39,968 bases of DNA from Acidobacteriota bacterium (GTDB lineage Bacteria > Acidobacteriota > Terriglobia > UBA7540), in contig CADDZJ010000028.1 in assembly GCA_902812415.1 (NCBI GenBank), forward strand, positions 1-39,968. The letters are read 5' to 3'. The notes beneath the pieces were generated by a model that had not been told where the DNA came from, made no database searches, and saw nothing but the letters and a program-made list of their open reading frames with translations. Below are positions 5,261 to 32,356 of this stretch, in pieces. Numbering within the stretch: the stretch's first letter is position 1; each line of letters starts with the position of its first letter. The translations under genes and the position numbers were made by a program.

Positions 5261-5655
5261 TCGCCGCCTCTTTTCTCGGGCAAAGCCGCTGACGGAGTTT
5301 GGCCGTCCGGCATTATCGCCTCATTGTAGCGTGAATGTTCCAAACAGGGGGTAGCCGCCGTCAGTGCTTTTCTGACTGTGGGGTCTTCGCTATCGGGAGA
5401 AATCCACGGTCAACCAGAAAGCCGGTTGACTGCGGATTTCAACTTGACGAGCGCGTGGGAATGATGATAACCTTTTAGTAAATAGCGGCGCGCTATTTTT
5501 CCCTTCGCAACGCACGCCTTGATGTAACTTTTTCCCCTCGATTGAAAACGAAATGCCTATTTTCGCGGAGAAAAGTCAATGCCCTTGACCGACGTCGAAG
5601 ACGTTCCGCAACTGCCAGAAATCGCGCCGGCCTTATTGCTGAAAGACGCTCCCTC

Positions 5656-5782
5656 TGTCATTCTGCGCGGAGCCTCCCGCGCCGTCATTCTGAGCGGAGC
5701 GCAGCGAAGCGAAGAATCCCCGTATTTGTCCGATTCAATGCGAATTCCGGGATGCTTCGCTGCGCTCACCATGACAGGGGCT
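5656..5782 (+). repeat. R1 palindromic repeat, copy c
   Basis: Contains GTCATTCTGAGCGGAGCGC, GCGAAGCGAAGAATCCCCG and, on the other side, GGGATGCTTCGCTGCGCTC, giving a quasi-palindrome that brackets a short core beginning AATCCCCGTATTT. It belongs to the same family as 1331-1456 and 28940-29056. Confidence 0.7.
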
Positions 5783-5904
5783 GGAAGAGTTTTCGAGCAG
5801 CTACGGCGCAAAACCCAAAGGAGCATTTCGATGGCATTTGCTGAAAAACACCGAGCGAGCGCCCAGCAGTTGGTCGCCCCTCGCGGTGCCCAAATCCACC
5901 GACT

Positions 5905-6153
5905 GCTCCGAAAAAAAGAATGTTTAGGTCTAGCGAGCGCAAAAAATAATCTATCGCATTGAAAAAATGGATGTTATTGGCTTCTTATTCGATCAGCCTT
6001 TACGAACAATTTCCAAAACTCCTTGTATGTTAAAGAAAATAAACCACTTATTAATTTAATTTGTTCGTTGCGCGCAATCATACAGAAAATAAAAGACTTA
6101 ATTGAAAAACAGGGAAATTGTTCGTCATTTTGTGGCACGAAATCAGGCCAAAT
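5905..6153 (-). repeat. AT-rich paired element, copy A
   Basis: Read on the minus strand, this is the partner of 31821-32072. An inverted-repeat pair of 13 bp (6002-6014 and 6113-6125; ACGAACAATTTCC and its exact complement) bounds 124 bp. The other copy has the same arms at exactly the same spacing. Homology continues outside the arms: GCCAATAAC, a hairpin-prone stretch around TTTTTTCAAT, CCTAAACATT and a T7 run. By gap-free hand alignment the 124-bp parts are about 74% identical. There is no ORF and no transposase. It could be a MITE-like element or an untranslated RNA; the sequence does not decide. Confidence 0.7.
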
Positions 6154-6181
6154 TGAGCGGCCCGGAAAGAAAAATGGAAGA

Positions 6182-6325
6182 TCAGAAATTGTAAAAAAAA
6201 ATCTCGCTGTAGCGGCGATTTGTGATCGCCGACGCCCGCGATCACAGATCGGCGGGTATTTAAAAACTTCGGCGAACATAGTTCGCCGCTACAACGGCGT
6301 GGATTCGTTGATTCACAGCGCGACG
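6182..6325 (+). repeat. R3 palindromic repeat, copy a
   Basis: TGTAGCGGCGA (6208-6218) and TCGCCGCTACA (6283-6293) are complementary ends of an 86-bp palindrome. The interior holds GATCGCCGACGCCCGCGATC-type nested dyads. Homology with 27128-27302 also includes the A-run leader before the palindrome and the segment CAACGGCGTGGATT with ATTCACA after it. Confidence 0.75.
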
Positions 6326-6683: not shown

Positions 6684-9128
6684 ATGCGGTTATCCCCGGA
6701 AAAGGAAATCAAAGCCGGATTTGGTCTGGCCCTGGCGACGCTGGTCGCGCTGGGCGTCGCCCAGTATCAGAGCGCGCGGCATTTTGCTCAGAAGAGCCAT
6801 TGGGTGGTTCACAGCAACCAGGTCCTTCGGGAGCTTGAGGCGACGGTGAATCTCATGGATGACGCCGCGGCCGCAGAGCGCGGCTACGTGATGACAGGCG
6901 GAAGCAGCTATCTGAAGACCTACTGGAAATCGGCCCGGGAAGTCAACGACCACCTGAACCAGCTTCACAACCTGACAGAGGATAATCCAGACCAGCAACA
7001 ATGGCTTCAGCAGCTTCAGCCGCTTGTTTCCAGAATATTTCACATCTTCCAGCGCTCGATGGCCTTGCGCCAGAGCAACGGTTTTTCATCGGCAAGGGAA
7101 CTCATTCTTGCAGGAAGCGCGGAGGAAGCGATGACCTCGATCCGGATGCTGGTGGGGGATATGAGGGGTGAGGAGTTCCGATTGCTGAGGGAGCGGAACG
7201 CCGCGGCGGAAGCCGGCCATTGGAAGACGCTGCACTCCATTCTCCTTGGGACGTTCGTGGCCCTGGTAATCATCAGCGCGGCGGCCTTCCTGATCCTTTC
7301 CGATGTTCGGCAGCGCGTCCAGGCGGAGCAGGAATTGCAGTGCGAGCGCGACCTGCTGCACACCTTGATGGATAATGTCCCGGATTTTATCTATTTTAAG
7401 GATCCGGCCAGCCGATTTACCCGAATCAACCGGGCCCAGGCGCAGGCGTTGGGCTTAAAAGATCCCGCCGAAGCGATCGGGAAGACCGATTTCGATTATT
7501 TCACGCTGGAACACGCCCGGGAGGCTTTCGAGGACGAGCAAACCATCCTGCGCACGGGCGAACCGGTGATTAACAAAATTGAGCGGGCGAGCCGGTCCGG
7601 TCAGCCTCCTGTCTGGGTCTCCACCACCAAAATGATCATCCGTGACGTGAAGGGAGAGGTGATTGGGACCTTCGGTGTGAGCCGTGATATGACGGAACGC
7701 CGGCAGGCTGAAGAAGCCCTCCGGGCCAGTGAGGAAAAGTTCCGGGCCGTGACTGATACGGCCAATGACGCCATTATTTCGGCAGACCAGTCTGGAACTA
7801 TTCATTATTGGAATGCGGCGGCAGAACGCATATTTGGCTATTCGGAAAGCGAAATTCTTGGCAAGCCGCTCACCCTGCTGATTCCCGAACGTCTTCGGGA
7901 CGAGCATGAAAAGGGCATGCAGCGATATCTTGAAACGGGGCAATCCCGTCTGCTTGGCAAGACCGTTGAACTGGCAGGGCTGCGCAAGGATGGGAGCGAA
8001 TTTCCGCTGGATCTCTCACTGGCAAGCTGGCGAACCGCCGAGGGCGTTTTCTTCACGGGCCTCATTCGGGATATCACCGTTCGCAAGCAGGCCGAGAAAG
8101 CGCTGCTTGAGGCGAAAGACGATTTGGAAAAGCGCGTCGCCGAGCGGACCGCGGAGTTGGCTGAAGCCAACGCTCAACTCGAGAACGAGCTGGCTCTTCG
8201 AAAGCGCGCGGAAGAGGAAATCAGGAAGCTGAATGAGTGCCTGGAGCGCCGCGTTCAGGAACGCACCGCCCAACTGGAGGAGGCGAATAAAGAACTTGAA
8301 GCCTTCACGTATACCGTGGCTCATGACTTGCGCGCTCCGCTCCGGCACATGAGCGGATTTGCCAGGATTCTTGTGGAAGAATATGCGCCGGCGCTCGATG
8401 AAAACGCACGGCATTATCTCGATCGAGTCAGCGAAGGGGCGCGGCACATGGGCCAATTGGTGGATGATCTGCTCAATCTGTCGCGGGTAGGGCGCAAGGA
8501 GTTGTCTCTGCAGCTCACGCCGCTGGATTCCCTGGTGGAAGCCGCCTTGGACGAGCTTGAGCCTGAACTTGCAGGCCGTGAGATCGAATGGCGATTCAGT
8601 CCGCTTCCGAGCGTCCGTTGCGATGCGACGCTGCTGAAGCAGGTTTTCGTGAATTTGCTGTCGAATGCCGTGAAATACACCCGCACGCGGAAGCGGGCGG
8701 TGATCGAAGTTGGGCACACGACCCGCGATCAGCAACCGGTCATCTTTGTGCGCGACAACGGCATCGGTTTTGACATGGCTTATAGCAAAAAGCTGTTTGG
8801 GATTTTCCAAAGACTTCATAGCAGCAAGGATTTTGAGGGGAACGGGGTAGGGCTCGCCATTGTTCAGCGCATTCTGCAGAAACACGGATGGAAGGCATGG
8901 ACGGAAGCGGCCATCGATCAGGGAGCCACGTTCTTTTTTACGGTCGGGGCGCCGCAATCGCCTGGCGTGGATTCCTCAGACCGTTCGTCGAAAAATGGCG
9001 CGTCGCCGCGCTGCGCAAACGGTTTATCGAATGAAAGCCATGGCGCCGCAACAGCAGACCCTGCCGAGTCTCACCAACCTGCTAAAAATCAACCGACAGA
9101 GGTTCATTATGGCTGCGCCCGAAGTTGA
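6684..9128 (+). CDS. Membrane sensor histidine kinase (CHASE3-PAS-PAS-HisKA-HATPase)
   Basis: The 814 residues divide into TM1 (~11-27), an extracytoplasmic CHASE3-like helical domain (~35-183, including AAAAERGYVMTG), TM2 (~184-206), PAS 1 (~223-345, LMDNVPDFIYFKD), PAS 2 (~350-475, ending GLIRDIT), a coiled-coil linker with two similar repeats (ERTAELAEANAQLE / ERTAQLEEANKELE), HisKA and HATPase_c. The phospho-acceptor is H547 in TVAHDLRAPLRHM; the N box is NLLSNAVKY (N661), G1 is DNGIGFD and G2 is GNGVGLAIV. The H-box and ATPase resemble the phytochrome-like kinases that pair with Rcp1-type regulators. A 55-residue polar low-complexity tail follows the ATPase and runs over the next gene's start by 20 bp. 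Confidence 0.92.
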   Translation: MRLSPEKEIKAGFGLALATLVALGVAQYQSARHFAQKSHWVVHSNQVLRELEATVNLMDDAAAAERGYVMTGGSSYLKTYWKSAREVNDHLNQLHNLTEDNPDQQQWLQQLQPLVSRIFHIFQRSMALRQSNGFSSARELILAGSAEEAMTSIRMLVGDMRGEEFRLLRERNAAAEAGHWKTLHSILLGTFVALVIISAAAFLILSDVRQRVQAEQELQCERDLLHTLMDNVPDFIYFKDPASRFTRINRAQAQALGLKDPAEAIGKTDFDYFTLEHAREAFEDEQTILRTGEPVINKIERASRSGQPPVWVSTTKMIIRDVKGEVIGTFGVSRDMTERRQAEEALRASEEKFRAVTDTANDAIISADQSGTIHYWNAAAERIFGYSESEILGKPLTLLIPERLRDEHEKGMQRYLETGQSRLLGKTVELAGLRKDGSEFPLDLSLASWRTAEGVFFTGLIRDITVRKQAEKALLEAKDDLEKRVAERTAELAEANAQLENELALRKRAEEEIRKLNECLERRVQERTAQLEEANKELEAFTYTVAHDLRAPLRHMSGFARILVEEYAPALDENARHYLDRVSEGARHMGQLVDDLLNLSRVGRKELSLQLTPLDSLVEAALDELEPELAGREIEWRFSPLPSVRCDATLLKQVFVNLLSNAVKYTRTRKRAVIEVGHTTRDQQPVIFVRDNGIGFDMAYSKKLFGIFQRLHSSKDFEGNGVGLAIVQRILQKHGWKAWTEAAIDQGATFFFTVGAPQSPGVDSSDRSSKNGASPRCANGLSNESHGAATADPAESHQPAKNQPTEVHYGCARS

Positions 9129-29226: not shown

Positions 29227-31503
29227 CTACGGGATCACCGAAACTTTTCTCCGGCTTAAGGTTGAGGCATTGCTGCCTACGCCAGTGGTCGTTGCCAGAG
29301 CTTTCAGTAGATAATCGCCCCTCTCGCGCGGAGCTTCCACATCAAACCAGAAAGTTTGCTGGCCCAAGCCAGGCACGCTGAACGGCTGGCTGAGGCGGGA
29401 GATTTCCTGCTCGGCCCTCGTAAAAACGAGTATGAGATCGCCGGATGCCGGTTGTGGCAGATCGTTCACCACCATCACCGCCATGCGTTGCTTTGAACTG
29501 GCTGGAAGGGAGGGCTTCCAGAAATCGATGTAAACGCCCAGGGGCTTGAAAGCCTCGCCCATGTAGTCCTTGAATTCAGGATGCAATTCGAGCTTCTCGA
29601 CGTCGCGGAAATGATCGCTGGTAAACACGCCCGGGTAAGAGCACGTGAGATAAACGAAGTGCAACACGCCGGCATAATTCCGATAGGCCCGCCAGAACTC
29701 GGTGAGTCCGGCGAGCAGGTAAGCATTCAGCTCAAGGCGTTCGGCGGCGGTTGCATGAGGGCCAAGAAGTCCCTCATACACGCGGGTGGTAAGCTGGGTG
29801 GGCGAGCCGTCGCGATTCAACCAGAGCCAGCCATATTCATTGTTAATCATGGCGTGACCCTGAGGCGGCCGGGCGCTGTTCTGGGAAATGCCCGACATCG
29901 TTTCGAGATCAGTCATCCGGAAAGGAGTTTCTGTTCCGAACTGATTGCGGATGAAAAGATACGGATGGTCTTCAACCGGATCGTTGAAACCTTGAGGACC
30001 GTTGTAGCTGTTTTCCCACGGACGGTTGGAGAGGTCAAGATTTCTCACTGCTGGAATAATGCTCCGGGCAAAGACCGGATCGAGCGTCTCATTATTCGCG
30101 TCCCAGATGATGACGCACGGATGATTCCAATTATCCCGCATCCACTCCGAATACTCCTTCACCATTTCGGGGACATTCCATTGACGACCGCTGTATCCCC
30201 ACGCGGGGCTGCCGGTCCAGATAAAATACTCGTTCTGGATCAACAGGCCGGCCTCATCGGCAATATCCAGCCACTGCTCAGGGACGGGCCCGATGCAGAA
30301 CCGGAATGCGTTCCAGTGCATCTGCCTGGGAATTTTGATCAGCAATCTCCGCAACCAGGTTTCATTCCAGGGAAGCGAGCCGCTGAGAGGGTCTTCAAAA
30401 AAGCGATGCAGAGTGATGTTGGAACCCCGCAGGAAGTAAAGCTTGCCGTTCAGATAAGCGCGCTTTGTCGCAGTGTCAAACCGGAACTCCCGCATGCCAA
30501 AGCGCGTTTGAAAAGAGTCTCCGCCCGCGCTGGTTTCGATGACGTAGAGAAAGGGATCCTCAGGCGACCAAAGCCGGGCATCGGGGATGCGGATTCTCTG
30601 CGTTTGCATTGTTCGCTCACCCGGCTGAAGCCGGAGGCGCGGGCTGGAAGCTCGGGCAACTTCGCTCTTTTCTTTCCAAGTCGTCACGCGATGTGCCAGC
30701 CTGAAATCCACAGGCTGCTTCCCGTGGTTTATGCAAACGACCTGGACAAGAATTTCTGAGTTGGCGATGACGGGAGCCACCTGCAGGGTCTTGATGACGG
30801 GGTTATCGCTCACCAGAAGCGACACGTCATCATAAATGCCCGGAGTCCACTTCCTTTTCTCAAAGTCTGTTCCTGTCGGCACGCCGATGGGCAGCACGCC
30901 CGGATGGGCGCCGACCCGGACGATCAGTTCGTTCTCAGCTTCCCAACGGATGGTGTCGCTCAGGTTAAAGAAGCCGGCGGTGAAGCAGCCCAGATGGTCG
31001 CCCATCTTCCGCCCGTTCAGCCACACTGCCGTTCCGAACTGAGCTTTATTGATTTTGAGGATTGCCACTTCTTTTTTCTCAGGCGCCCGAAAAGTCCTGT
31101 AGTACCAGAAATAGTTTCGCTTCTGAAGGGAAATTCCCGGGCTATCCTTGTTGAGCGATGTCCATGTGGACTCTGGCAATTCGCCAAACCGGACCAGGTT
31201 CCAGATGTTTTCCCGGCTTTGATATTCATCCACGTTTGGAAATGCGGGCTTCGCCAGATGCGCCAGGCCGGGCACGGGAACCGTGTGTTCGAAATGCGCG
31301 GGTATTTCGTCGGGAGCGACGCTGTCTGCGGCGTGCCACTCGCCGTTTAAGCTGATTGTTTGTCTTCCCATGCCCTTAGGCGCTTCATCGGCAGGCCTTG
31401 CGCCATCGCGCGCCGCTTCTGCATGCAGCATTGACGTTGCGCCAAAGGCTCCCACGGAGCCTTTCAGGAATTGGCGTCGCCCCAGCAGATTTCTTTTGCC
31501 CAT
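29227..31503 (-). CDS. Tat-exported GH2-type glycoside hydrolase
   Basis: The ~758-residue enzyme starts with a twin-arginine signal (GRRQFLKGSVGAFGATSM). GH2 architecture follows: sugar-binding jelly roll (~48-235; ISLNGEWHA, TAVWLNGRKMGDH), Ig-like domain (~240-345), then a TIM barrel with NWNHPCVIIWDANNE carrying the acid/base glutamate (~E472) and MINNEYGW with the likely nucleophile (~E556). An extra C-terminal beta-domain (~660-758) is present. The GH2 family covers beta-galactosidases, mannosidases and glucuronidases; the exact specificity is not readable. Two tandem ATGs (31506, 31503) exist, and the second has GGAG at better spacing. It lies convergently 332 bp from the GH79-type gene, suggesting joint action on an acidic polysaccharide. 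Confidence 0.88.
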   Translation of the reverse strand: MGKRNLLGRRQFLKGSVGAFGATSMLHAEAARDGARPADEAPKGMGRQTISLNGEWHAADSVAPDEIPAHFEHTVPVPGLAHLAKPAFPNVDEYQSRENIWNLVRFGELPESTWTSLNKDSPGISLQKRNYFWYYRTFRAPEKKEVAILKINKAQFGTAVWLNGRKMGDHLGCFTAGFFNLSDTIRWEAENELIVRVGAHPGVLPIGVPTGTDFEKRKWTPGIYDDVSLLVSDNPVIKTLQVAPVIANSEILVQVVCINHGKQPVDFRLAHRVTTWKEKSEVARASSPRLRLQPGERTMQTQRIRIPDARLWSPEDPFLYVIETSAGGDSFQTRFGMREFRFDTATKRAYLNGKLYFLRGSNITLHRFFEDPLSGSLPWNETWLRRLLIKIPRQMHWNAFRFCIGPVPEQWLDIADEAGLLIQNEYFIWTGSPAWGYSGRQWNVPEMVKEYSEWMRDNWNHPCVIIWDANNETLDPVFARSIIPAVRNLDLSNRPWENSYNGPQGFNDPVEDHPYLFIRNQFGTETPFRMTDLETMSGISQNSARPPQGHAMINNEYGWLWLNRDGSPTQLTTRVYEGLLGPHATAAERLELNAYLLAGLTEFWRAYRNYAGVLHFVYLTCSYPGVFTSDHFRDVEKLELHPEFKDYMGEAFKPLGVYIDFWKPSLPASSKQRMAVMVVNDLPQPASGDLILVFTRAEQEISRLSQPFSVPGLGQQTFWFDVEAPRERGDYLLKALATTTGVGSNASTLSRRKVSVIP

Positions 31504-32356
31504 CATCGCTCCGGAACAGTGAATTCGTTGCAGGCTTTGCAGGCGCCGAAAGACCCTGGAGGTCTTTCACAATGAGCCTTCCGCCTGTCGTTCTGATGCC
31601 GAAGAGTTTGGCTGGAAACTGTTTCAAAACCTATTTCGTGGCGTCGGAAGCACATTGCAGAGGCGGCTTTACGCGGCCATTTTGGGTGGCTGGATAAACC
31701 CGCCACAACTCGACGCAAACAATCCGAGGTTTTTAAACATCCCATATTCATGACACTATTCAAAATAAAATTTTATCACTCTGTATTAATTTAATTGTGA
31801 CTTGCGCCTCAAACTGCCCCATTTGGCCCAATTACACGTCGTAGAAAAACGAACAATTTCCCCATTTTTAAGTTAAATCGTTCATTTTCTTAATGTTGAT
31901 TATAAACAAACAAATTAAATTCATAAGCCATTTAAAATCTTTTAGATACAGTAATTTTTGGAAATTGTTTGTAAACGGTGACCGAACAACAAGCCAATAA
32001 CTTACCTGCTTTCAATCAGGTAGATTTTTATATGCGCTCTCCAAGCCTAAACATTATTTTTTTCCGGCGTTTTCCGATTGGATCTATGATCATGAAATAC
32101 ACAATATGATTTATAGTCTCGTATAATAAAATTAAGCCACGATCGAGCAGCGCGCCCATTGCTATTTTGTCTCTCATTTTCGATTCCGTTCCGGTTTCGC
32201 ACCCCCCGCCTTTCCAAGGTCGCTGCCGGCGATCCCCTGAGTCCGAGATCGCCAGAGAAATATCTTCACGAATTAGGCTACTATAATAGCCCATGACAGG
32301 TCAAGGCCCTGGCCGCAATGGGTTCGCCGAAGTTTTGGGAAATAAAAAGCCGGCGA
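31504..32356. other. 850-bp gene-free region
   Basis: No credible protein gene. It contains AT-rich element copy B, several hairpins (GGCGATC 32228-32234 with GATCGCC 32247-32253; GGCTA/TAGCC around 32275-32291) and a truncated R3 copy that runs into the 3' end of the CPBP gene. It is among the most AT-rich parts of the window. Confidence 0.65.
31821..32072 (+). repeat. AT-rich paired element, copy B
   Basis: Direct-orientation partner of 5905-6153. Arms ACGAACAATTTCC (31849-31861) and GGAAATTGTTTGT (31960-31972; one mismatch to a perfect complement) bound 124 bp, as in copy A. Beyond the right arm, conserved GCCAATAAC precedes a hairpin (TACCTG/CAGGTA), then TGCGCTC, CCTAAACATT and a T7 run. 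The core matches copy A at about 92 of 124 positions without gaps. Neighbouring genes differ from those of copy A, so homology stops with the element. Confidence 0.7.

Follow-up and report, generated by a model that had tools for sequence, protein, structure and literature searches.

Small interspersed repeats of bacteria are usually viewed as parasites that are tolerated at the least harmful positions, such as those between convergent genes. Putative mobile promoters, in turn, are homologous upstream sequences that occur before unrelated genes. The BOX, RUP, and SPRITE repeats of Streptococcus pneumoniae are enriched between convergent genes, in which the authors saw a mark of parasites that are tolerated (PMC3049150). 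Among MITEs, Correia elements and Nezha are AT-rich, non-autonomous, and dispersed and can carry regulatory sequence (PMC3049150), and REP/BIME and RAYT-linked repeats are described as high-copy, intergenic, and protein-binding (PMC2817692). A literature search for such repeats in Acidobacteria returned nothing relevant, although earlier descriptions may well exist.

The element family described here came to light as two copies in the window, i.e., the whole analyzed stretch of 39,968 nucleotides, which belongs to the 4.84-Mb MAG of an uncultured member of the Acidobacteriota (G000). Like BOX, RUP, and SPRITE, the element is short, non-coding, intergenic, and without a transposase of its own, with copy numbers per genome in the range of tens to ~125, and its organization as a core with flanking modules recalls the modular structure of BOX (PMC3049150). 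However, whereas the pneumococcal repeats combine their preference for convergent genes with strong predicted RNA folds (PMC3049150), the element is rare between such genes, is strongly oriented toward gene starts, and shows no consensus fold. It differs from Correia elements and Nezha in its one-way placement, and neither terminal inverted repeats nor target-site duplications were found. It shares a high copy number and intergenic location with REP/BIME and RAYT-linked repeats, but REPs are short hairpins (PMC2817692), and the element is ~250 bp long without a hairpin core. The reading that we favor, with a probability of roughly one half, is that of a non-autonomous, dispersed element of ~250 bp, copied within lineages, that would serve as a protein-binding platform set one way upstream of genes.

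Copy number, length, and ends of the element

The two copies in the window (Table 1) align over 244 bp at 73.8% identity with zero gaps (5911 to 6159 on the minus strand versus 31821 to 32064; blastn E value, 7e-39), so that the gap-free pair of about 74% identity reported in the first-pass annotation is real. The 13-bp arms described there span 124 bp in both copies, although the right arm of copy 2, GGAAATTGTTTGT, fits the complement at only 12 of 13 positions, and the conserved blocks GCCAATAAC, CCTAAACATT, and T7 do run on at one side, with a sharp stop at CCTAAACATTCTTTTTTT. The pair is part of a much larger family, with at least 40 copies in G000 when either window copy is used as the blastn query and 54 to 55 by profile. 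In the three other genomes of the same genus, G001 to G003, blastn gave no match, and diverged homologs were found by profile only (~58 in G002, 19 in G003, and 1 in G001).

Among the full-length aligned copies of G000, 39 of 42 measure 246 to 251 bp despite a mean pairwise identity of 78% (divergence of ~22%), in keeping with the earlier suggestion of constraint or a defined length. The edge on the CCTAAACATTCTTTTTTT side is sharp, and the opposite side fades around CAATTTGGCC, with one subfamily running ~40 bp further. No conserved reading frame exists, as every copy has stops in all six frames and the codon positions vary equally, which rules out a coding sequence and agrees with the absence of an ORF noted at the outset. 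A C-terminal gene tail was also considered, as GAATGTTTAG reads as a peptide ending in KKNV and a stop in one frame; it was rejected because the frames upstream differ among copies. Within G000, 17 of the 54 copies are no more than 600 bp away from a contig end versus 3.5 expected, an excess that assembly breaks at near-identical repeats would produce.

Being AT-rich, short, present in high copy number, and without coding capacity, the element has several properties of a MITE. A classical MITE, in which the 13-bp arms would be the terminal inverted repeats, is nevertheless extremely unlikely, since the arms are internal rather than terminal, equally conserved sequence extends ~90 bp past the 3' arm, and the true ends (~CAATTTGGCC and CATTCTTTTTTT) are not inverted repeats. 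The broader proposal of a dispersed, MITE-like spread therefore stands in part: the copy number and the non-orthologous sites speak for it, and the internal position of the arms and the failure to find terminal inverted repeats or target duplications speak against it.

On the T-run side, the copies are flanked by one or another of a set of modules (A to D), always in the same register. Loci L010 and L019 have a near-identical module A next to different cores, and L012 and L013 have a common core next to different modules; these combinations indicate that module exchange happens at the T-run. L012 and L013 lie at the starts of contigs C83 and C92, and there the cores are 98% identical, with 42 bp in common next to them at one end and different modules at the other. 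A palindrome, TAGGCTA-N6-TAGCCTA, has 19 exact sites in G000 (for example, C1:53122-53141), all of them 176 to 271 bp from the T-run of a copy, and it is absent from the 900 bp past the T-run in G002 copies. Other repeats are abundant in intergenic regions, at 5600 to 5780 and 6200 to 6300 in the window as well as at many loci (TCATTCTGAGGAGCGCAGCGAAG…, GGCGATCACAGATCGCCGCTACA…, CACGGGCGGGACGCCCGTGCCAC…).

Table 1. Element copies in the window, their parts, and the genes whose starts face them
Feature	Position	Strand	Basis or remark
Element core, copy 1	5911..6159	-	blastn and profile matches, alignment; distal T-run end at 5911, gene-proximal end at ~6159, toward the gene starting at 6684
Copy 1, 3' arm (ACGAACAATTTCC on +; GGAAATTGTTCGT in element orientation)	6002..6014	+	sequence
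Copy 1, central site ACGAACAAATT	6058..6068	-	co-varies with the 3' arm between subfamilies
Copy 1, 5' arm ACGAACAATTTCC	6113..6125	-	sequence
Flanking module A, distal side of copy 1	5645..5910	-	same register beside ~10 other copies
CHASE3-PAS-histidine kinase gene, 814 aa, start faces copy 1	6684..9128	+	
Element core, copy 2	31815..32063	+	blastn and profile matches, alignment; gene-proximal end at 31815, toward the gene starting at 31506, T-run end at 32063
Copy 2, 5' arm ACGAACAATTTCC	31849..31861	+	sequence
Copy 2, 3' arm GGAAATTGTTTGT	31960..31972	+	differs at one position from the complement of the 5' arm
Copy 2, palindrome form TAGGCTACTATAATAGCCCA	32274..32293	+	one mismatch to TAGGCTA-N6-TAGCCTA; 210 bp past the T-run
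Gene with glycosyl hydrolase family 2 domains, 759 aa, start faces copy 2	29227..31506	-	

Placement relative to gene starts and promoters

Genes and start codons were called with a simple codon model, and Pfam confirmed nearly all of the genes faced by the element as genuine. With the copies read in element orientation, the 5' neighboring gene starts toward the element in 43 of the 48 copies of G000 that could be scored (43:5; binomial p = 1.4e-8), in 43 of 55 in G002 (43:12; p = 3.3e-5), and in 13 of 17 in G003 (13:4; p = 0.049), copies with common flanks, such as copy 1 and L009, being not fully independent in these counts. The direction of the gene on the other side shows no preference. 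When gaps were pooled by type, 45 copies in tandem-gene gaps pointed toward the downstream gene and 3 pointed back, and a further 39 copies were in divergent gaps and 10 in convergent gaps, without enrichment in the latter; these pooled counts also take in more distant genomes, each of which contributed five to eight copies. Four testable repeat motifs from the same intergenic regions, used as a control, showed no such orientation bias (4:11, 4:8, 3:2, and 4:3). The functions of the flanking genes have no common theme and include housekeeping genes (cysS, GAPDH, yidC, and a menaquinone gene), and the element lies at very different distances from the promoter or start codon, from tens to hundreds of base pairs. 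The same-way orientation at the starts of such different genes argues for a spreading upstream control element rather than for an ordinary parasite or an RNA gene. A link with the expanded acidobacterial PadR family was considered and discarded, as only 3 members were over the cutoff in G000 and none of them was beside a copy.

Sigma70-like promoters between the element and the start codon scored higher than local shuffles on average in the three species (mean z of 1.0, 0.4, and 1.2), by a generic promoter matrix. In many copies, the best sigma70-like scores fall downstream of the element, which suggests that the element most likely acts as an upstream platform and is not the promoter itself. 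A mobile promoter, in which the element would carry the promoter of the gene that it faces, accords with the orientation toward the gene, with homologous upstream sequence at unrelated genes, and with the trpB copy and other G002 copies that are only ~20 to 60 bp from the start codon. However, the element is longer than mobile promoters and has iterated sites, canonical sigma70-like promoters lie between element and gene in many copies (for example, at the uvrA-like gene of L154 and L283), so that the promoter is apparently outside, and no conserved -35/-10 pair was recognized by eye inside the element. We consider this explanation unlikely.

Iterated sites and covariation within the core

The core contains iterated CGAACAA-type sites; these are the 5' arm, a site in the center, and the 3' arm, which is inverted, and G002 adds one or two more. 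These sites occur at a density of ~2 or more per copy compared with ~0.02 per 250 bp in the flanks (>50-fold), and an iterated motif lying one way upstream of promoters is the arrangement of an operator array or upstream activating site. The central and 3' sites are ACCAACAA/TTGTTGGT in G002 subfamily I, AGGAACAA/TTGTTCCT in G002 subfamily II, and ACGAACAA/TTGTTCGT in G000. They co-vary, with 95.4% paired and 39 double-change cells versus 14.5 in shuffles, slid controls being far lower, and this covariation reflects a small number of independent events, from about three subfamilies and some single copies. Within G000, the match between the two sites is loose, and in subfamily II, the same-orientation sites 3', 4, and 5 carry one and the same variant; taken together, these two patterns fit a common binding protein better than they fit one stem. 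The iterated and co-varying sites thus make a protein-bound DNA site, one of the possibilities raised in the first-pass annotation, the reading that the sequence appears to favor.

The T-run at one end, the long-range complementarity, and the covariation of the central and 3' sites could also be accounted for by a structured RNA, which would be an mRNA leader or else a small RNA that is directed away from the gene and terminates at the T-run. However, no consensus fold was present on 85 sequences of two species on either strand, single sequences had a folding z of about -1 (i.e., ~1 standard deviation below dinucleotide shuffles), no Rfam match was found, and one paired partner cannot explain the identical variant at sites 3', 4, and 5 of subfamily II. 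When the two 13-bp arms were treated as an RNA stem, the covariation of the 5'-3' pair did not go beyond chance (score of 0.102 versus 0.092, with 38 of 500 shuffles as high). A structured RNA is therefore very unlikely in our judgment, and the untranslated RNA that had been suggested for the pair fares poorly.

We propose that a non-coding, non-autonomous element of ~250 bp would spread by copying within each lineage and would occur upstream of gene starts, or be retained there, nearly always in a single orientation. Its three to five CGAACAA-type sites at fixed spacing may be bound by a lineage-specific protein, and the bound protein may in turn affect the promoter located between the element and the start codon. 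Two observations run against this platform reading: the variable distance is unlike that of a classical activator site next to the -35 region, and the candidate regulated genes have no common function.

Turnover of loci and related elements

The genes whose starts face the element mostly differ between species, with one gene in common per species pair, which could reflect chance or a few old sites. One such gene, shared by L154 and L283 and uvrA-like by its N terminus, has the element 135 and 154 bp away, with a conserved-looking promoter between element and gene. Considering the copy number, the non-shared loci, and the assembly breaks at copies, we infer that the element has spread by copying between loci.

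The tryptophan genes provide one gap-free counterpart. The two genes trpC and trpF have a 4-bp overlap in G002 but are separated in G000 by ~980 bp that include one element copy facing trpF, and G002 instead has a copy between trpF and trpB. As the ~980 bp also contain other repeats, this is an occupied-versus-empty gap and not a clean single insertion, and the element ends or a duplication are not readable within it. The trp operon is thus split at different places in the two species (L031 1499-2480 and L156 1320-2530), each region containing an element copy.

The non-orthologous loci, the unrelated target genes, the variable distance to the start codon, and the split trp operon would all be compatible with a parasitic element without a regulatory role, whose insertion machinery recognizes a feature upstream of promoters, such as open DNA, RNA polymerase, or supercoiling, and thereby produces the one orientation. 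Targeting factors, however, usually yield a narrower insertion distance than that seen here. Further, neither a transposase nor a terminal inverted repeat nor a target duplication was observed, the sequence and spacing are tightly constrained even though copies differ by 22%, and the pneumococcal BOX, RUP, and SPRITE repeats are distributed in the opposite way (PMC3049150). We regard a purely parasitic element as somewhat unlikely.

An extended form of the platform reading, which we put forward tentatively and with some doubt, is a self-spreading, enhancer-like cassette of ~250 bp, in which sites of fixed geometry would co-evolve with their binder and which would repeatedly be set one way before unrelated promoters, some of them of housekeeping genes. 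Its upstream modules would be exchangeable and would include a private palindrome. The distribution seen here, with a ratio of 45:3 in favor of the downstream gene in tandem gaps and with rewiring among the species of a single genus, is the reverse of the usual pattern and would constitute a natural case of regulatory sequence spreading by copying. The family may likewise be a natural example in which binding sites and a presumed trans factor change together.

Beyond the genus, four genomes of other genera in the family have one or two profile matches each. A class-wide survey of 299 genomes gave seven positives, all of them from the same family as G000, and the phage, plasmid, and viral collections contained no match to the element. 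An exact DNA pattern likewise gave no hit in named genomes among the records open to the search. By cysteinyl-tRNA synthetase, the closest named relatives of the host are Acidobacteria/Terriglobia MAGs with at most 73% identity, which places it among the uncultured members of that group. One genome of another genus (G033) has a lone full-length homolog (G033:C157:12749-12954; 65 bits), with next to none elsewhere in that genome, possibly as a result of transfer or bin contamination. In G005, a genome of another genus than G000, we observed an AT-rich element of ~290 bp (L079 1465-1760 and L081 1465-1760) with four TTTTC-TCAACATTCAAGG-like repeats. Two copies end beside the stop of genes that form a small family (…LMRRMQDSNFRQVWRVTNLLLKIKRQAR…; L079 1718-2122 and L081 1744-2268) for which Pfam gave no match. 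The G005 element has a 31-bp stretch in common with the family of G000, and at two of its copies there is a gene whose start faces it, encoding an MscS-like channel in one case and GatB in the other.
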